A stretch of 43,911 bases of DNA from an uncultured Pseudomonadota bacterium (GTDB lineage: Bacteria > Bdellovibrionota_B > Oligoflexia > Oligoflexales > CAIYRB01), in contig CAIWTN010000005.1 of assembly GCA_903915625.1 (NCBI GenBank), positions 1 through 43,911 on the forward strand, read 5' to 3'. The translations under genes and the position numbers were made by a program. A model generated the notes under the pieces. The model was not told where the DNA came from. It worked only from the letters and a program-made list of their open reading frames with translations, and searched no databases. Positions 33,502-43,911 of the stretch are shown in pieces. Position 1 is the stretch's first letter; each line of letters begins with the position of its first letter.

Positions 33502-35037
33502 GTGAAGGTTGCCATTTCCTATCCACCTATCGTCAATGCCCGTGGTCAGAAGGCCATGGTTTCGCAGAATAGAAACGTACAATTTTTTAAGACACCAACG
33601 TACCTTCTTCCCGTAGTTCACGCTCAAGCTGCAACATGGCTTAAACAGCTTCGCTTTGAGGTGATATGGGACGATGGGAACGCGCAGCTAAAAAGCTATG
33701 AGCAATGGTTCAATGATCTCGTCAAAGCCAAACCTGACGTGATTATTTTTGAGAGCACCACCCCGGTGATGAAGTTTTATTGGCGGACAACTGACGCACT
33801 AAAGAAAATCCTGCCAAACACGATTTTTATTATGACGGGATATCATTCTATGCGGCGGCCCGAGGAGACGCTAGAGCTATCGCAAACTGATATTGTTCTC
33901 AGAAGCAATCACGTTGACTTCGTTCTTGCAAAGTTAATACCCTTCATTGCCAATAATCCAGATTGGCGCATCACTTGTAATCTAGAAGGTCTTGCGATCC
34001 GAGAAGGCGCTAGCAAGATTCGCTCGACCGGTCATTTTCGACAGGTGGAGCCCCTGGAACGATCGCCTATGGTAGATCGTGACCTGGTGCAGTGGAAAAA
34101 TTATGCCTTTGAGAACGGAAATTACCTTCAGACCCCTGGTACCTATGCAACCAGCGTAATTCGTGACTGCATGTTCGGTAAGTGTACGTTCTGTCGATAC
34201 AACGGCCCCGACCTGACGTTTTCGGTACTTCCTGTGGAGAAAAGTCTTGATGAATACGAAAGACTAATCAACGAACACGGTGTCAAAGAGATTTTTGATG
34301 ATTCTGGCGTTTGGTATCGTGGCAAGGAGGCCCGGGAATTCGCACAGGGCATTATCAAACGCGGCCTACACAAAAAGGGCTGCTACTTCGGTTTTAATAC
34401 CCGCTTTGAGTATCTCGACAAAGAGACTATCGAACTACTTGCAAAGGCCAACTTTCGTTTTGTATTGATCGGCTTAGAAGCGGCTGATGAAGAGACTTTG
34501 ACGCGATTAAACAAAGGCTATCAACTCCAGCACGTCGAACGCAGCCTAAAATGGATGAGCGACGCTGGGTTGCACCCGCATCTGACTATTATGGTCGGGT
34601 ACTACTGGCAAACTAGTGAGCAGCTCAAAAAGACTGTCGACCTCGTCAAGAGCCTGATGTTTCGAGGACTAGCCAGGACCCTACAGGTGACTCTTTGCAC
34701 ACCGCTCGACTACACCCCTTATCATCAGGAATGCATCCAGAATAAGGTGCTCCAGACAGACAACTATGACGACTTTGACATGAGTAAACTCATAGTAAAA
34801 ACCCCGATTCCCCATGCGGAATATTATCAGGCAGTCAGGGAGATGTATGGCATCGCATTTCATCCCCGATTCTTACTAAGGCAGCTCCGTTTTTTGCTGA
34901 CCTTCAAACGCAGAGATTGGCAATTTCTTTTCACGTACGGCATTCGCGCAATTCGCCGCGTTCGTAATCATATGTTTAATTTAACAAGAGGAGAGGGTTT
35001 GGCTATACCAGACCCTGAGGCACCTACCCCACTTTGA
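33502..35037 (+). CDS. B12-binding-type radical SAM protein
   Basis: A 511-residue protein starting at GTG (AAGGGG nearby). Residues about 1-145 form a cobalamin-binding-like Rossmann domain (MTGYHSMRRPEETL matches the late G-G-x-H segment), but the DxHxxG base-off motif is absent. The radical SAM core has Cys223, Cys228 and Cys231 (RDCMFGKCTFCRYN), a C-x4-C-x2-C spacing seen in a subset of B12-type enzymes rather than the standard C-x3-C-x2-C. Further family text is IFDDSGVWYRG, FGFNTRFEYLD, LIGLEAADEETLTRLNKG and MVGYYWQT. Such enzymes methylate or rearrange difficult carbons. Within a glycan cluster the substrate may be a lipid or sugar. Its stop abuts the stop of the convergent aminopeptidase gene with no gap. 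Confidence 0.85.
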   Translation: MKVAISYPPIVNARGQKAMVSQNRNVQFFKTPTYLLPVVHAQAATWLKQLRFEVIWDDGNAQLKSYEQWFNDLVKAKPDVIIFESTTPVMKFYWRTTDALKKILPNTIFIMTGYHSMRRPEETLELSQTDIVLRSNHVDFVLAKLIPFIANNPDWRITCNLEGLAIREGASKIRSTGHFRQVEPLERSPMVDRDLVQWKNYAFENGNYLQTPGTYATSVIRDCMFGKCTFCRYNGPDLTFSVLPVEKSLDEYERLINEHGVKEIFDDSGVWYRGKEAREFAQGIIKRGLHKKGCYFGFNTRFEYLDKETIELLAKANFRFVLIGLEAADEETLTRLNKGYQLQHVERSLKWMSDAGLHPHLTIMVGYYWQTSEQLKKTVDLVKSLMFRGLARTLQVTLCTPLDYTPYHQECIQNKVLQTDNYDDFDMSKLIVKTPIPHAEYYQAVREMYGIAFHPRFLLRQLRFLLTFKRRDWQFLFTYGIRAIRRVRNHMFNLTRGEGLAIPDPEAPTPL

Positions 35038-36522
35038 TTAAAGGCTACCCAACCAAGCCCCACTATCCTGCCTTAAACTGCGAAACATGGCATTAAACGG
35101 TGCGCCAGTGGCTCCGTAGGTAGCACCAGGGTAGTCACCGCTCCAGTTCCAGGTAGAAGCAAAAATATCGAAGTGAATCATGGGCAGAGTCGCGAACTCC
35201 TTCAAGAAGTGCGCAGCGACATTGGAGCCACCCCCAATATGCGCGTCCTTCGGCATCCGCCCCATATTTGTTAAATCTGCGGCTATGTGCGAGTTGCCTT
35301 GGAGAAAAGGTAAAAACTCACCCCAGAATGTAAACTCTTCGCCCACATCACGGCCTGCGCGCTGCAGGCTATCTTGGCAGCTTAGTGGCGCAAAATGCAC
35401 TGGAGTAAAGAAGTTTGTAAACTGCCGTAGTGATGCTGTCGTCAAAGTCGCTGCGACCAGCGTTTGCACAGGATTGAGCTCCCTCTGCGAGTAACTAATC
35501 GCATCGGCCAGGATCAACCGCCCCTCAGCATCGGTATGCTCGATAATGACATCTTTTCCGCTAAATGAGCGAATGATAGCTCCCGGTTTCACAGAGCGCT
35601 CACCAATCAGATTTTCACAGCATGGTATAGCAACTGCCAACGGCCCGTCGTATCCACTTTCCACTAATGCCATGAACAGGTTGACCATGAGCCCGGCACC
35701 GCCCATGTCATTTTTCATACAATTGACATGGCCCTCATGGGGCTTCAGGTTGATACCACCCGTATCAAAGGTGATACCCTTTCCTACCAATAGCAACGGC
35801 CTTGATCCTGGCATAACCCGATGCGTGGCCAGGTAAAATCGGGATGGCGAAAGATCGCTGGCTTGGCCCACTGCCAGCAGTAAATTCATCCCTAACTTGG
35901 TAAGTCCTTCACGACCAAAGGAATTAAATTCGCAGCCATGACGCCGACAGAATGCTTCCAGCCGTTCACCAATAACGACGGAAGTTAATTCGTCAGGATT
36001 TTCGTTAACCCAGCGGCGGAAGCCTAGTTGGTGCCGCAGGCGCAAATCGTGATAAGGATCCGCGGATTTCAAGGTTTCCGCATCACTGCTGAGTATCCGC
36101 AGACTCTCTAGCTCGCTGCGTTCATAGCGCGGAGTCATCTTACGCGTCCAAAGATCCTCGACAACGGCCAGCTCAGCTGGTCCAGATCCCGCTTCGAGAT
36201 AAACGGCAATCTTCTTGAGATTGAACTGTGTGGTCAGCGCAGTCACCATCTTATGGGCTACCCAGCGCCTTTCTAGAGCTGAAACACCCGACTTTTGCCA
36301 GCTGAGTACAGTATAAGGGCGAAGGCCATCATGACTCAAAAAGCCACTGTCGCTGCGAAGATAGTGCGTAGTCCGAGCTAAGCTTGGAGCCGATTTTTCA
36401 ACAAGCTCCCGAACCCACGGGGACCTTTCGCCGGACGGTGCACCGAGGATAATTAGCAACTCATCTGGTGCCACATGGTCAGCAACACTGCCGGATGGAA
36501 TCTCTTTGATCTCTGGAATCAT
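35038..36522 (-). CDS. M17 leucyl aminopeptidase family protease
   Basis: A 494-residue M17 aminopeptidase. All metal and catalytic residues are seen: Lys248 and Asp253 (VGKGITFDTGG), Lys260, Asp272 (KNDMGGA), Asp331, Glu333 and Arg335 (TDAEGRL). Members use two metal ions to remove N-terminal amino acids and usually act as hexamers in the cytoplasm. ATG 36522 overlaps the stop of the aldehyde dehydrogenase gene as ATGA, and GAGG lies eight bases upstream; 33 extra codons upstream read into the neighbour and are rejected. It is the last gene of the gamma-glutamylation operon, where it could cleave a dipeptide product or simply be co-expressed. Confidence 0.92.
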   Translation of the reverse strand: MIPEIKEIPSGSVADHVAPDELLIILGAPSGERSPWVRELVEKSAPSLARTTHYLRSDSGFLSHDGLRPYTVLSWQKSGVSALERRWVAHKMVTALTTQFNLKKIAVYLEAGSGPAELAVVEDLWTRKMTPRYERSELESLRILSSDAETLKSADPYHDLRLRHQLGFRRWVNENPDELTSVVIGERLEAFCRRHGCEFNSFGREGLTKLGMNLLLAVGQASDLSPSRFYLATHRVMPGSRPLLLVGKGITFDTGGINLKPHEGHVNCMKNDMGGAGLMVNLFMALVESGYDGPLAVAIPCCENLIGERSVKPGAIIRSFSGKDVIIEHTDAEGRLILADAISYSQRELNPVQTLVAATLTTASLRQFTNFFTPVHFAPLSCQDSLQRAGRDVGEEFTFWGEFLPFLQGNSHIAADLTNMGRMPKDAHIGGGSNVAAHFLKEFATLPMIHFDIFASTWNWSGDYPGATYGATGAPFNAMFRSLRQDSGAWLGSL

Positions 36523-37895
36523 GACGGCAACCTCAGATGCCACGCTTTTGGCTTCAGAAATGCATCTATCCCTAGTATCGACAGAGTAGAACCTACACCG
36601 GAATGACCGCGACCACTCCAAGGCAGACGCGGACTAACACGGTCACAGCAGTTCCAATAGACACTGCCTGCATTGAGTTGATTCATGAGCGACGTCGCCG
36701 TGGCTGCATCACGCGTATAGACCCCGGCAGTGAGACCATATTCAGTATCGTTCATGAGCTGCAAGGCTTCGGCATCATCCCGCACCTTTTGAATCCCAAT
36801 CACTGGACCAAAAGACTCTTCACGCATGACAGCCATCGTATGATCGACATTCGTTAACACAGTCGCGGGAAAATAGGCGCCTTTACCAGCTTGGCGCTCG
36901 CCGCCTAACAGCAATTTCGCTCCTTTTTTGACGGCGTCACGGACTTGCTCCTCAAGCACACTAAGCTGCGCTTTACGCGCTAACGGACCAAAATAAACAC
37001 CTTCCTCCGTTGGGTTGCCACTTTTTAAAGTCCGTGTGAAAGCGACAAAGTGCTCAACAAATTGGTCATAGATATCCTGGTGGACATAAATACGTTCGAC
37101 TGCACAGCAACTTTGCCCTGCATTGTAAAATGCACCATCCGCTGTGCTTTCTGCGGCAACTTTGACATTTACATCTGGACGAATGTACACGGGATCTTTG
37201 CCGCCCAACTCAAGCTGCACGCGCACCATTCGACCAGCAACTTTTTCTATGATTTTTTTACCGGTGGCGTAAGAGCCAGTAAAAAACACACCCTCGACTG
37301 GCTGATCTAGTAGCCAACCACCAACCTCACCACCACCAACTAAACATTGAAATAATCCGCTAGGCAAACCTGCATCGTGCCAAAGCTTCTCGATGTGACG
37401 ACCGGTCAGTGTGGCAAATTCAGACGGCTTATAAAGAACCGCATTCCCCGTTAGTAGCGCTGGAATAAACACATTGCTGCCAACAAAGTACGGATAGTTC
37501 CAAGCTGAAATATTGGCAATGACTCCCAGAGGTTCTTGGCTGATTCGTTCTGTCATACCTGTCGCTGCGTCATGCTGGACCACTTGATCGCGCAGACGAG
37601 CAGAGGTTTCGCTGAGGAAGAAGTCGATGCGAGCCAAGGTGCCGTTAACCTCGTTGCGGGCCTGAGCCAATGGCTTACCAACTTCACTAGTTAAGATTTG
37701 GGCACTTTCCTCACTGCATTCGGCCAACAACTTACGAAATCGCTCGACTACACGGACGCGTTCAGCATAAGGCACCGCACGCCAAACTTGTTGGGCGACT
37801 TTAGCTGCAGCAAACTTTTGGCTCACAGCTTGCTTTTGATCGGCTTCCAAACGTGTAATGACCGTCTCATTTGCTGGATTAACGACTTCTAACAT
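36519..37895 (-). CDS. NAD(P)-dependent aldehyde dehydrogenase (PuuC/GabD-like role)
   Basis: A 458-residue aldehyde dehydrogenase. Catalytic Cys263 lies in NAGQSCC, the general base Glu229 in VQLELGG, the oxyanion Asn133 in AWNYP, and the cofactor loop in TGSYATG. It turns an aldehyde into a carboxylic acid in the cytoplasm. In this operon, between the hydrolase and the aminopeptidase, the expected substrate is a gamma-glutamyl-linked aminoaldehyde, as for PuuC, but specificity cannot be read. The second Met (37895) has GAGG seven bases upstream; the codon before is TTG. It overlaps the aminopeptidase start by four bases. Confidence 0.9.
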   Translation of the reverse strand: MLEVVNPANETVITRLEADQKQAVSQKFAAAKVAQQVWRAVPYAERVRVVERFRKLLAECSEESAQILTSEVGKPLAQARNEVNGTLARIDFFLSETSARLRDQVVQHDAATGMTERISQEPLGVIANISAWNYPYFVGSNVFIPALLTGNAVLYKPSEFATLTGRHIEKLWHDAGLPSGLFQCLVGGGEVGGWLLDQPVEGVFFTGSYATGKKIIEKVAGRMVRVQLELGGKDPVYIRPDVNVKVAAESTADGAFYNAGQSCCAVERIYVHQDIYDQFVEHFVAFTRTLKSGNPTEEGVYFGPLARKAQLSVLEEQVRDAVKKGAKLLLGGERQAGKGAYFPATVLTNVDHTMAVMREESFGPVIGIQKVRDDAEALQLMNDTEYGLTAGVYTRDAATATSLMNQLNAGSVYWNCCDRVSPRLPWSGRGHSGVGSTLSILGIDAFLKPKAWHLRLPS

Positions 37896-37969
37896 CAATA
37901 GACCTCGTGATTTAAATGCCTAATTTTGTGCTTAATCGTAGCGCACACTAGCCTCTGCTAACATGCACC

Positions 37970-38746
37970 TCAGCGTTTACGGTCACGTGCTGCTGATAAT
38001 AGCGCTTGCAGCACAGGTACAGGACTAAGAAGAGCTGTATCCACATCCGATTGCAATTCTGGATGCCATTGTAAACCAAGTAAAAAAGCCCCAGATGCGT
38101 CCTTAAGGCGGAGCGCCTCTACAACACCATCAGAAGGCGATCTCGCCTCTACCCTCAAATTAGGCGCCAGATCTTTCACGGCTTGGTGATGCACGCTATT
38201 GATCATGCCCTCGCTAACGCCGTAAAGCTTTGCTAACTCACCGCCCCGCTCTAGGGTCAGCTCGTGATGATTTCCCTCGTAAACATCAAAAATGCGGTGA
38301 TGCAGCGAGCCTGGATGCTGACTACGAACATCCTGGAAAAGCGTGCCACCTAACGCCACGTTGAGTACCTGATGTCCACGACAGATACCTAGTATCGGTT
38401 TGTCGTACTTAAGAGCCGCCTTCACCAGCGCAATCTCATAATCGTCACGATGCTTATCACCAGCCCATTCAGGACGCAGCGGCTTCTCACCGTATGACTC
38501 TGGCGCCATATCGACACCGCCGGTGATAATGATCGCATCAAGTTCTGCGACCATGTCATCGACGCTCATGCCACCAGCTAATGTCGGTGTTGTAGGCAGC
38601 AGCAAGGCAAAGGCTCCAGCCGCCATCACCCAATGGGCCATATTTTCTTCAAGATAAAGCAGCCGCCGGCCCTTATAGGCCATGCGTGACATATCCGGTT
38701 GGTAAATGTTGGCACTTAGACCAATGCGTAACCGCGACTGAACCAT
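37970..38746 (-). CDS. Gamma-glutamyl-gamma-aminobutyrate hydrolase family (PuuD-like)
   Basis: A 258-residue class I glutamine amidotransferase-fold enzyme of the C26 family. The triad is complete: Cys122 in GICRGHQ, His228 and Glu230 in LQWHPE. TGGVDMAP and HHQAVKDLAP are typical of PuuD. PuuD cleaves the amide between glutamate's side-chain carboxyl and an amine-derived acid, recycling glutamate. The ATG lies one base after the stop of the alcohol dehydrogenase gene. It precedes the aldehyde dehydrogenase gene by about 74 bases, the one larger gap in the operon. Substrate probably a gamma-glutamyl amino acid; size and chain length unknown. Confidence 0.9.
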   Translation of the reverse strand: MVQSRLRIGLSANIYQPDMSRMAYKGRRLLYLEENMAHWVMAAGAFALLLPTTPTLAGGMSVDDMVAELDAIIITGGVDMAPESYGEKPLRPEWAGDKHRDDYEIALVKAALKYDKPILGICRGHQVLNVALGGTLFQDVRSQHPGSLHHRIFDVYEGNHHELTLERGGELAKLYGVSEGMINSVHHQAVKDLAPNLRVEARSPSDGVVEALRLKDASGAFLLGLQWHPELQSDVDTALLSPVPVLQALLSAARDRKR

Positions 38747-38747
38747 C

Positions 38748-39896
38748 TCACTGCGCCTGCGCGAACAAGTTAATAAAATCTGATCTGGTCACAGGTCGCG
38801 GATTACTGCCGTGGCATGGATCTGCGACTGCAAAGTCGAGCAGTACGTCGGTAGTCTTAGCCCCTATCGCAGCTAGACCCGTGGGCAATCCCACTTCCTT
38901 CTTCAGCGCTGCAAGCCAGCTAATAAAGCCTTTACCTAAGGTGTCCTGGTCTAGCGAGCGCACACCAACTGCTTGCCCAAGGCGCGCCATTCTTTCCGGT
39001 ACGGCGCTTAGGTTAAATTCCATGCAGGCGTTTAACATGAGTGCATTTGCTAGACCATGGTGGGTATCATAAACCGTCGAAAGCGCATGAGCACACGAGT
39101 GCGTCACGCCAAGGCCTTTTTGAAAGGCAATCGCACCCATCATCGAAGCCAACTGCATGCCAGCACGTGCTTCGTAGTCATGAGGCGCTCGGACCGCTTT
39201 AGCAAGGTGCTGCGATACTAACCGGACCCCCTCTAGGGCAATACCATCAGCAAGAGGGTGGTACCCCTTTGCTAAAAAGGCCTCGATATTGTGAGTCAAC
39301 GCGTCGAATCCAACCGCCGCTGTCACGGCTGCGGGTAAACCATAGGTCAACTCTGGATCGGCCAGCACCAACGGCGGAAGTAGCTTAGGATCGAAAATAA
39401 TCTTCTTGGCATGGGTAGTATCATCGGACACTACTGATGAACGCCCAACTTCACTACCCGTGCCTGAAGTCGTCGGAACAGCAATCATAAATGGCACCGG
39501 TTGATCGACCGGTCGAGCATCAGGTTTGCCATCTTCGTAATCAAAAAGATGCCCCGGATGATTCACCATGAGAGCGATCGCCTTGCCGACGTCCAACGGG
39601 GCTCCACCGCCGATGATGACCAAACTGTCAGCCCCATGTTCATGGTAGGCGTTGACACCGCCCTTGACCTGCCTTTCCGTTGGATTGCCGTAAACACCCG
39701 CATAAACCGCCGGAATCAACCCCACCTGACCTAGGCTTGCGATGACATCGGTGATCATCGGTAGATTACCGAGAGCTCTATCGGTAACAACCATTGGCCG
39801 CTTAAGACCGCGCTGCTTCAGAACTTCGGGCGCCAATTTGATGGCCCCGGCACCGAATTTGATCGTGGTTGGGTAGTTAAATTGCACGACGGCCAT
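38748..39896 (-). CDS. Iron-containing (group III) alcohol dehydrogenase
   Basis: A 382-residue Fe-dependent alcohol dehydrogenase. Metal ligands by alignment to FucO: Asp198 and His202 (GFDALTHNIEAF), His266 (VTHSCAH) and His280 (DTHHGLANALML); cofactor site GGGAPLDVGK (97-105) and TTSGTGSEV. It interconverts an alcohol and an aldehyde with NAD(P). In the puu pathway of E. coli this step is done by the flavin amine oxidase PuuB, which is not found here. AAGGAG lies seven bases before the ATG. The gene is 10 bases after the PuuA-like gene and one base before the PuuD-like gene, so it very likely acts in the same pathway, on an alcohol or as an aldehyde reductase. Confidence 0.9.
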   Translation of the reverse strand: MAVVQFNYPTTIKFGAGAIKLAPEVLKQRGLKRPMVVTDRALGNLPMITDVIASLGQVGLIPAVYAGVYGNPTERQVKGGVNAYHEHGADSLVIIGGGAPLDVGKAIALMVNHPGHLFDYEDGKPDARPVDQPVPFMIAVPTTSGTGSEVGRSSVVSDDTTHAKKIIFDPKLLPPLVLADPELTYGLPAAVTAAVGFDALTHNIEAFLAKGYHPLADGIALEGVRLVSQHLAKAVRAPHDYEARAGMQLASMMGAIAFQKGLGVTHSCAHALSTVYDTHHGLANALMLNACMEFNLSAVPERMARLGQAVGVRSLDQDTLGKGFISWLAALKKEVGLPTGLAAIGAKTTDVLLDFAVADPCHGSNPRPVTRSDFINLFAQAQ

Positions 39897-39906
39897 ATAA
39901 GTCTCC

Positions 39907-41265
39907 TTAGATAATTTCGAAGTAGCGCTTCAGTTCCCAGTCGGTGATTGCCTTCTGACTCTCTCGCCATTCCCACCGTCTAGTTGCAGCATAGTGATCG
40001 ACAAATTTATCCCCAAAAAGCTCGCGCGCCACGGTCGAGCGTTGGAAGATCTCCGTCGCCTCATCCAAGCTGCGTGGAAGGGGTTTTGCATCCCGTGCGA
40101 GGTAACCACTACCCTGCACCATTGGCTCCGTGAGTTCCAACTTGTTTTCGATCCCATATAGACCTGCAGCAATAGCAGCGGCAATAGCCAAGTATGGGTT
40201 GATATCGGCGCCTCCGACCCGTAGTTCTAGGCGCGTAGATTTCTCACTACCAGGAATGACGCGCATGCAAACTGTTCTATTATCTCTGCCCCAGGTCACA
40301 CGTGTGGGAGCCCAAAACCCCTCAACTAGGCGTTTGTAGCTATTAACCGTAGGTGCGAACATGGGCAGAATCTCAGGCAAGCAGTGCATCTGACCAGCCA
40401 GATAACTCTTAAAAGTGGGGCTCATCTTCAGAGGATCAGAAGCATCATAAAACAGATTCACATTTTCTGAATTGCGCAAACTCTGGTGAATGTGACCGCT
40501 ACACCCCGGCAATTGATTATTCCACCGCGCCATGAACGACGCCGTATAGCCGAACTGGTTCGCAATCTCCTTCGCACCGGACTTAAAGAGCACAGCTCGG
40601 TCAGCTGCCTCTAAGGCTTCGGCTGCGGCAATGGCCGCCTCGTATACTCCCGGACCAGTTTCGGTATGAAGTCCCTCAATCGGAACGTCAAAATCTCGCA
40701 TCTGATCGTATAGCGCATTAAAGAACTCACGTTCATACCCAGAGCGCGTGAGCGAGTAGCCAAACATCCCAGGTGTCAAAGGCTCTAGATTCACAAATTG
40801 CTTTTGGCTAAGCGAATGCGGTGTCTCGCGGAAATTAAACCACTCAAATTCCACGCCAATGGTCGGAAACATGCCGGCTACTTCAGCCTGCGCTAAAATT
40901 TGCTTAAGAAGCTGGCGCGGACAAATCGGCAGTGGCCTGTCTTGATCGTCAACAAAATCACCTAAAAAGAAGGGCGTTTGCTGATCCCATGGAATGGTCC
41001 GGAAGGTGGACAAATCAAGATTCACCTTGGCATCCGGATAACCAGTATGCCAGCCGGTATATTCCACGTTGTCGTAGGCATGATCGGAGCTATCCCAGCC
41101 GAAGACGACATTACAAAAGCCAAAACCAGACTCAGCTGCACTGAGAAATTTATCAACGTGAACAATTTTTCCGCGCAGCACGCCGTCAAGATCTGTGATA
41201 GCGACCTTAACTTTAGTCGCCTCCGACCGCCTGATCTGCTTAATCACATCTTCTGGCTTGCTCAT
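39907..41265 (-). CDS. Gamma-glutamylamine synthetase (PuuA/glutamine synthetase family)
   Basis: A 452-residue member of the glutamine synthetase superfamily. Motifs: VGVEFEWFNF and ETGPGVYEAAI for the metal Glu residues, GCSGHIHQSL, NSYKRLVEGFWAPTRVTWG, NRTVCMRVIP, and ELRVGGADINPYLA. The large PuuA-like C-terminal half and lack of an adenylylation loop distinguish it from housekeeping GlnA. PuuA joins glutamate to putrescine, and IpuC and Streptomyces GlnA4 join it to isopropylamine/alaninol or ethanolamine. It uses ATP in the cytoplasm. First gene of the operon; the second of two adjacent starts (ATG 41265) has GAGGG nine bases upstream. The amine cannot be told from sequence. Confidence 0.9.
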   Translation of the reverse strand: MSKPEDVIKQIRRSEATKVKVAITDLDGVLRGKIVHVDKFLSAAESGFGFCNVVFGWDSSDHAYDNVEYTGWHTGYPDAKVNLDLSTFRTIPWDQQTPFFLGDFVDDQDRPLPICPRQLLKQILAQAEVAGMFPTIGVEFEWFNFRETPHSLSQKQFVNLEPLTPGMFGYSLTRSGYEREFFNALYDQMRDFDVPIEGLHTETGPGVYEAAIAAAEALEAADRAVLFKSGAKEIANQFGYTASFMARWNNQLPGCSGHIHQSLRNSENVNLFYDASDPLKMSPTFKSYLAGQMHCLPEILPMFAPTVNSYKRLVEGFWAPTRVTWGRDNRTVCMRVIPGSEKSTRLELRVGGADINPYLAIAAAIAAGLYGIENKLELTEPMVQGSGYLARDAKPLPRSLDEATEIFQRSTVARELFGDKFVDHYAATRRWEWRESQKAITDWELKRYFEII

Positions 41266-41390
41266 CAATATATTCCCTCAAAAACCAAAACTAGCTGCAG
41301 GTGAGATAATGACAGCGATCATAATGGACCTTGAGGAAATAATGAACGACGAAGACGCAAAAAATACCTTAGCCTTGGCTAGCAACATGT

Positions 41391-42320
41391 CTACTCTGCC
41401 CAAAGCTTTGTTGGCAGACCGAGTTCACAGCCACGATCCGTGCGGAGGAACGACTTCCCACTCCACGTGAACGTATCACCATCCGTCTGTAAACTCACCG
41501 GGTACAACTTAGGTACCTCATCACCTTCAAGCTTGATAGAGAGCAGCGGCTGACCTACACCACTGTATGCTTCCCAAGTCCCCATTTTGAGCTGTCCGTC
41601 ATCCGCTTTAATGACGGTATCCCCACCAAATCCAGTCTGTTTATAGGCAAATCGGCCTGTACACAACCAAAGCAACTCGCGCCCAACACCCCCGTTACTA
41701 CCAGCACTACTGGATGGACCTGCAAACGACCATTCACCAACGGCTAGATAGCGGCGAACAGCAACGTCAGGCACCATGCCTGAGAATTTGATGCTTGTAG
41801 CTACAGCCAAGACCCGCTGTTTTACCGTTTCGATATTGCCAATGAAGGTAGAACCAAGGATCCGCACACCGCCAAAGGTTGCATTATCCTGGGTTTGACG
41901 GGTAAGCACCGCCAAATGAGAATAGGCTTTCCTGCCTCCGTCAAGGTCGGCAGAATAAGCCCTCTGCAGTCCAGTAATCTCTTTAAGGACCAGCGGAGTG
42001 GCCACCCCAGTTGCGGTAACCTTGGTACCGTCCTCCAAGGCCACGCTATCTGGTAGGGCGGCGCTCAGTGCGTCCGATGTCAAACTAGCATCGTAATGAA
42101 CGGTCAATCCCTCATCGTTCTTAGCTGAAACCCAAACCATCGATGTGGCGGTTCCACTGCGACTTTCAAGATCCATGGGCGCAGCGAACTGTACCCCCAA
42201 ACCAGAGAGGTCGCTGGCCCCACCAGTCCAACCCTCATTGCTGGCGCTACCACCATTCTGTTGACTGCTGCATCCGCAGATGAGGACGGCAAGAGTCCAG
42301 GCCAAACCTAAATGTCGCAT
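41391..42320 (-). CDS. Lipoprotein of unknown function
   Basis: A 309-residue lipoprotein (VLICGCSS, Cys about 16) beginning at ATG 42320 with AGGGGG six bases upstream. A Gly/Ser-rich linker leads into beta-rich regions: SGLGVQFAAPMDLES, TATSMVWVSAKNDEG, and a final domain with VGEWSFAGPSS, LLWLCTGRFAYKQTG, KMGTWEAYSG and TFTWSGKSFLR. The last segment resembles the repeated W-x-x-G strands of small lipocalin-like or META-like domains. I do not recognise the family. It is divergent from the Rsm22-like gene and separate from the gamma-glutamylation operon. Confidence 0.7.
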   Translation of the reverse strand: MRHLGLAWTLAVLICGCSSQQNGGSASNEGWTGGASDLSGLGVQFAAPMDLESRSGTATSMVWVSAKNDEGLTVHYDASLTSDALSAALPDSVALEDGTKVTATGVATPLVLKEITGLQRAYSADLDGGRKAYSHLAVLTRQTQDNATFGGVRILGSTFIGNIETVKQRVLAVATSIKFSGMVPDVAVRRYLAVGEWSFAGPSSSAGSNGGVGRELLWLCTGRFAYKQTGFGGDTVIKADDGQLKMGTWEAYSGVGQPLLSIKLEGDEVPKLYPVSLQTDGDTFTWSGKSFLRTDRGCELGLPTKLWAE

Positions 42321-43592: not shown

Positions 43593-43645
43593 TATTTTAA
43601 ACTTATTTATTAGATCTCTGCGGACGTATCTCGCTTGATGAGATA

Positions 43646-43911
43646 TTAGCAGCGGCCAATATTTGGACCCAATCCACGTATGCAAGGGCCGCCAAAACCA
43701 CCACCAATTCTAGGGCCACCAAAGCCACCGCGGAAACCTGGGCCGCCGAAGCCACCGCCAACACCTGGGCCACCGAAGCCACCGCCAACACCTGGGCCAC
43801 CGAAGCCACCGCCAACACCTGGGCCGCCGAAGCCACCGCCGACACCACCACCTTGACCTCCGAAGCCACCACCAACACCACCGCCTTGGCCGCCGAAGCC
43901 GCCCTGGCCAC
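43646..43911 (-). CDS. Glycine-rich repeat protein, C-terminal 87 residues (cut by window edge)
   Basis: In the minus-strand frame ending with TAA at 43646-43648 the DNA encodes an almost pure Gly protein, with units GVGGGFGGP repeated, changing upstream to GGQGGGVGGGF. It closes with a short different tail, GPCIRGLGPNIGRC, with two Cys. The start lies beyond the window edge. The neighbouring frame gives an Ala/Val-rich read-through of the same repeat DNA and is rejected: the Gly frame has the ordered third-position changes (GGC/GGT, TTC/TTT) expected under coding. Glycine-rich repeats of this kind occur in secreted, adhesive or silk-like proteins. The role is unknown; the tail Cys pair suggests crosslinking or a fold outside the cytoplasm. 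Confidence 0.75.
   Translation of the reverse strand, partial: GQGGFGGQGGGVGGGFGGQGGGVGGGFGGPGVGGGFGGPGVGGGFGGPGVGGGFGGPGFRGGFGGPRIGGGFGGPCIRGLGPNIGRC
43739..43846 (-). repeat. Four tandem 27-base units coding GVGGGFGGP
   Basis: Units at 43739-43765, 43766-43792, 43793-43819 and 43820-43846 are nearly identical; differences are silent G/A or C/T changes in Gly codons. Each encodes nine residues, so unit gain or loss keeps the frame. Degenerate copies continue to the window edge and toward 43690. Confidence 0.9.

Follow-up and report, generated by a model that had tools for sequence, protein, structure and literature searches.

A candidate operon for ethanolamine use by gamma-glutamylation, with its own ligase clade and gene order, in an uncultured Oligoflexales bacterium

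An ethanolamine operon that encodes a ligase, a dehydrogenase, an aldehyde dehydrogenase (ALDH) and an amidohydrolase occurs in Chromohalobacter salexigens and Agrobacterium, according to Vetting (2015) as cited in PMC10132767. Phosphorylethanolamine induces the operon of Phaeobacter sp. MED193, which encodes RpiR, GGAH, EtoV, EtoW, EtoX, ETAGA, GAADDH and GETADH; the Kd of EtoX for ethanolamine is 7.9 uM (PMC10132767). Operons of the same order are present on plasmid 1 of Paracoccus denitrificans and on Marinovum pMaD4, where an iron-containing (class IV) alcohol dehydrogenase occupies the GETADH position; this synteny suggests that GETADH is itself an iron-containing alcohol dehydrogenase (Fe-ADH). 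In Streptomyces coelicolor, GlnA4, encoded in the SCO1611-1615 cluster, is a gamma-glutamylethanolamide synthetase in vitro, and a short-chain dehydrogenase (SDR), an ALDH and a glutamine-amidotransferase-like hydrolase are encoded nearby (PMC6529630). A search of a limited collection of papers found none that joins ethanolamine, glutamylation and an iron-containing alcohol dehydrogenase.

The window analysed here, a stretch of 43,911 nucleotides from an uncultured Oligoflexales bacterium, carries on its minus strand a four-gene operon for a ligase resembling glutamine synthetase (GS) (452 aa, 39907..41265; PF00120, E=1.2e-94), an Fe-ADH (382 aa, 38748..39896; PF00465/PF25137), a PuuD-like C26 gamma-glutamyl hydrolase (258 aa, 37970..38746; PF07722, 1.7e-59) and an ALDH (458 aa, 36519..37895; PF00171, 4e-134), followed by a gene for an M17 aminopeptidase (494 aa, 35038..36522; PF00883). 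The ligase and Fe-ADH genes are separated by 10 bp, the Fe-ADH and hydrolase genes by 1 bp and the hydrolase and ALDH genes by 74 bp, and the ALDH and M17 genes share a 4-base overlap (ATGA) of stop and start; the operon genes are presumably co-transcribed. The first-pass annotation had recognized the four-gene arrangement, which the Pfam matches and the exact gaps bear out, but it began the four-gene span at 35038, a coordinate that is the end of the fifth gene, that for M17, omitted from its title. The ligase gene runs from an ATG at 41265 to a stop at 39907, a motif scan finds GAGGGA 5' of its start, and a lipoprotein-like gene (42320-41391) lies 125 bases upstream on the same strand; a convergent gene follows the five-gene block. 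A promoter and terminator scan of 34800-41500 gave no more hits than shuffled sequences, an Rfam scan of the whole window gave no match, and none of the five operon proteins reached the cut-off of an NCBIfam equivalog model. At the window edge (43603-43911) there is an Ala/Val-rich low-complexity repeat ORF that is probably no simple coding gene.

The ligase matches solved GS-like ligases strongly, and it falls below the NCBIfam equivalog cut-offs for GlnA, GSIII and gamma-glutamylputrescine synthetase, scoring 212 bits against a cut-off of 650 with the last of these. Alignment to Escherichia coli GlnA places Trp318 at the position of GS Glu327, with the metal ligands (E139, E141, E202, E209, H258 and E347) and the ATP and most glutamate-site residues (H260, R312, R330, R335 and R349) retained; the Trp is shared by 88 of the 89 members of the ligase clade. 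The same position holds Trp in PauA7 and Phe in GlnA4, and such a substitution has been read as a sign of ligases for amines bigger than ammonia (PMC6529630). By these residues the window protein appears to be a GS-like ligase with the active site of an amine, non-ammonia, ligase. In a ligase tree from which GlnA4 was left out and whose deep order is unsure owing to midpoint rooting and long branches, PDB 5dm3 and 11zs group with the Marinovum, P. denitrificans and Paraburkholderia ligases in one Eto-type group with 100% support, and the window clade, of 90 rows, lies outside it; from the Eto-type group the order passes through Paenarthrobacter IpuC and next a Legionella/Photobacterium/Rhizobium group to reach the window clade. 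PDB 5dm3, whose database title says just 'L-glutamine synthetase', is presumably Csal_0679 of Chromohalobacter. The window ligase is thus nearer in the tree to the IpuC-annotated isopropylamine ligase (~42% identity) and to the Legionella/Photobacterium group than to its counterparts in the described ethanolamine operon; its identity to these is just ~36%, which counts against ethanolamine as substrate. Its identity to E. coli PuuA is 31%.

The dehydrogenases point the other way. The Fe-ADH is 43% identical (304 bits) to that of the P. denitrificans ethanolamine-type operon, the syntenic Paracoccus and Marinovum iron-containing/class IV enzymes together spanning 42-43% identity to it, and its D198, H202, H266 and H280 have what we take to be the spacing of the FucO metal ligands. 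The ALDH, in which a motif scan finds GQSC and LELGG, is nearer to its P. denitrificans counterpart (38% identity, 276 bits) than to PuuC (32%, 210 bits). The hydrolase, 37% identical to E. coli PuuD, retains GICRG, with its Cys, at 120-124 and HPE at 228-230. The M17 protein is a divergent paralogue that retains the metal and arginine motifs of its family and is 31% and 35% identical to the products of two further M17 genes in the same genome. It is kept beside the operon in the same-genus genomes G003 and G005, and it is absent from the remaining related loci with enough downstream sequence; a functional link to gamma-glutamyl products is possible. In G014, a genome of another family, an M17 gene (L129, 8791-10230) whose product is 51% identical directly follows the ligase gene, with no ADH or ALDH gene nearby.

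From this gene set we infer both a substrate and a series of reaction steps. The ligase, a predicted gamma-glutamylethanolamide synthetase, would form gamma-glutamylethanolamide from glutamate, ethanolamine and ATP; the Fe-ADH, as gamma-glutamylethanolamide dehydrogenase, would oxidize the free hydroxyl of this compound to the aldehyde, gamma-glutamylacetaldehyde-amide; the ALDH would act as gamma-glutamylacetaldehyde-amide dehydrogenase to give gamma-glutamylglycine; and the C26 enzyme, a predicted gamma-glutamylglycine hydrolase, would release glutamate and glycine, the glycine then entering the glycine cleavage system. Since the amine would be masked by glutamylation, neither a cobalamin-dependent ammonia lyase nor free acetaldehyde would be needed. 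We consider it probable that the operon serves in this way for the use of ethanolamine as a nitrogen (and carbon) source.

The arrangement is widely conserved. One scan of named genomes identified 80 loci with ligases 56-99% identical to that of the window, distributed among Bdellovibrionota, Bacteroidota, Pseudomonadota, Myxococcota, Acidobacteriota, Verrucomicrobiota, Spirochaetota, Planctomycetota and other phyla. Of the 64 homologous loci that extend 4.2 kb or more downstream of the ligase, 46 repeat the order ligase-ADH-hydrolase-ALDH on one strand, so that this order is not due to chance; 23 of these 46 additionally have an upstream permease, and in the large majority of loci the ligase gene has an ADH gene beside it. 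Cultured carriers of the permease-linked form include Flavihumibacter and Olivibacter domesticus. In 28 of 69 loci the ligase gene has a same-strand permease gene no more than 2.5 kb upstream, which in most cases overlaps it or lies close by, and permease-linked ligases are also scattered outside the Bacteroidota-rich clade (L042 and L055). Three of four permeases tested score 420-433 bits with the TIGR00908 ethanolamine permease model (cut-off 381.75), and the fourth, which is divergently placed, falls slightly under the cut-off at 375.8 bits. G009 (L128, 9412-12115) has a ligase with a permease only, no ADH, hydrolase or ALDH being encoded nearby. In four Bdellovibrionales-like loci (L054, L068, L073 and L081) a phosphatidylserine decarboxylase gene lies ~2-4 kb upstream of the ligase, followed by genes for two conserved proteins that have no Pfam match and then by the permease-ligase operon; this may be a link to phosphatidylethanolamine turnover, or coincidence.

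The host genome, with an estimated completeness of 96%, answers the checks for eut and puuB genes elsewhere that the first-pass annotation had proposed in favour of its reading: no EutB was found in it, nor, in a search that had no positive control, a match to E. coli PuuB, which was likewise not found in the operon. It does encode the glycine cleavage P protein (GcvP), elsewhere than in the operon, and one further GS gene, in a 732-residue frame. Among 56 relatives the ligase (counting strong matches) occurs in 18 and EutB in 14, with no genome carrying both; this mutual exclusion (Fisher p=0.002 by genome) is suggestive only, since it weakens to p=0.13 when counted by genus. The TIGR00908 ethanolamine permease was found neither in the window nor in the host genome, and in the window's own subclade no ethanolamine permease adjoins the ligase, an absence that counts against ethanolamine use by the host. 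The proposal that an amino alcohol is gamma-glutamylated, ethanolamine being the likeliest, is nevertheless well supported by the adjacency of TIGR00908-type permeases to orthologous ligases in relatives and by the failure to find EutB or a PuuB-like match in a genome that has GcvP; the resemblance of the ADH and ALDH to those of the syntenic ethanolamine-type operon and the Trp in place of GS Glu327, as in PauA7 and comparable to the Phe of GlnA4, add to this support.

The alternative that survives best keeps the same chemistry and changes the physiological substrate to another primary amino alcohol, such as 3-aminopropanol (yielding beta-alanine), L-alaninol (yielding alanine) or 4-aminobutanol (yielding GABA). 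Fe-ADHs and ALDHs are often broad in substrate, and both the position of the ligase closer to the IpuC-annotated enzyme and the missing host permease would fit such a substrate; we nevertheless think it unlikely, given that many orthologous ligases, including the scattered L042 and L055, adjoin ethanolamine-permease homologues, and that ethanolamine is the abundant one among natural amino alcohols. A biosynthetic or signalling role, in which the operon would make or trim gamma-glutamyl compounds and the M17 enzyme would act on a peptide product, could draw on the coupling of M17 to the ALDH gene in the window and on its place beside the lone ligase of G014, but the restricted distribution of M17 and an enzyme set that equals the described catabolic pathway step by step make this role highly improbable. 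Least probable of all is a puu-type diamine or polyamine pathway, to which the homology of the ligase and hydrolase to PuuA and PuuD would lend itself, with another locus supplying the amine-to-aldehyde enzyme and the Fe-ADH confined to a side or detoxifying role; as the main explanation it is rejected for the lack of any PuuB-like gene in the search of the host genome, for a ligase under the putrescine cut-off and for an ADH that stays beside the ligase in most loci.

Ethanolamine use thus remains the preferred reading. The pathway as such is already known; what differs here is the ligase clade, the gene order, the hydrolase family (C26) and the transporter. It is an evenly balanced question whether the window belongs to a second type of ethanolamine gamma-glutamylation operon, assembled separately and spread across many phyla as an alternative to Eut that needs no cobalamin, with its own ligase clade, a C26 hydrolase, often an APC ethanolamine permease and, in the window's genus, a dedicated M17 peptidase. 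Phosphatidylethanolamine makes ethanolamine abundantly available as a source of nitrogen. If the proposal is correct, Bacteroidota, Bdellovibrionota, Myxococcota, Planctomycetota and others would also possess, in the form of a distinct operon type, a route described so far mainly in Pseudomonadota and Streptomyces; it could account for ethanolamine use by genomes that lack ethanolamine ammonia-lyase, and many genes annotated as 'glutamine synthetase' could be renamed.

Among the described systems the Eto-type operon, and not puu, is the proper comparison for the locus, so that the original framing of an alcohol dehydrogenase standing in place of the amine oxidase was misleading. The accompanying suggestion that no complete operon of this form had been described does not hold, since the same four activities are combined in the Chromohalobacter, Agrobacterium and Phaeobacter operon, and the Fe-ADH form is not new either, the syntenic operons of P. 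denitrificans and Marinovum already carrying an iron-containing/class IV enzyme (for GETADH, the class is assigned by synteny). The Eto-type operon and the window have in common a GS-like ligase, an ALDH, an alcohol dehydrogenase and a gamma-glutamyl hydrolase, and the proposed chemistry would be the same, ending in glutamate and glycine. The window is nonetheless ruled out as a member of the Eto type by its separate ligase clade, by a C26 hydrolase (PF07722) where the Eto type has an N-formylglutamate amidohydrolase (PF05013), and by transport, the TRAP transporter EtoVWX being absent, as is the RpiR regulator; the gene order also differs, the Eto type having hydrolase-TRAP-ligase-ALDH-ADH. 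A third form, ligase-ALDH-FeADH-class I amidotransferase-like protein, is present on plasmids of Legionella lytica (L103, 10350-13615) and Photobacterium (L108, 10341-13735). With C26 in the window, PF05013 in the Eto type and a class I amidotransferase-type protein in this third form, the hydrolase step seems to be filled by differing families among these operons. The GlnA4 cluster resembles the window in having an ALDH and an amidotransferase-like hydrolase near the ligase, but alcohol oxidation there is assigned to the short-chain dehydrogenase and not to an Fe-ADH. The cluster of the gamma-glutamylisopropylamide synthetase IpuC (Paenarthrobacter aurescens TC1 pTC2) likewise has a C26-type hydrolase nearby, whereas its other neighbours are a P450/ferredoxin set and a short-chain dehydrogenase and its substrate, as annotated, is an alkylamine. 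The E. coli Puu system shares homologous ligase, hydrolase and ALDH (PuuA, PuuD and PuuC) with the window, but it differs in using the amine oxidase PuuB, whereas the window encodes an alcohol dehydrogenase.
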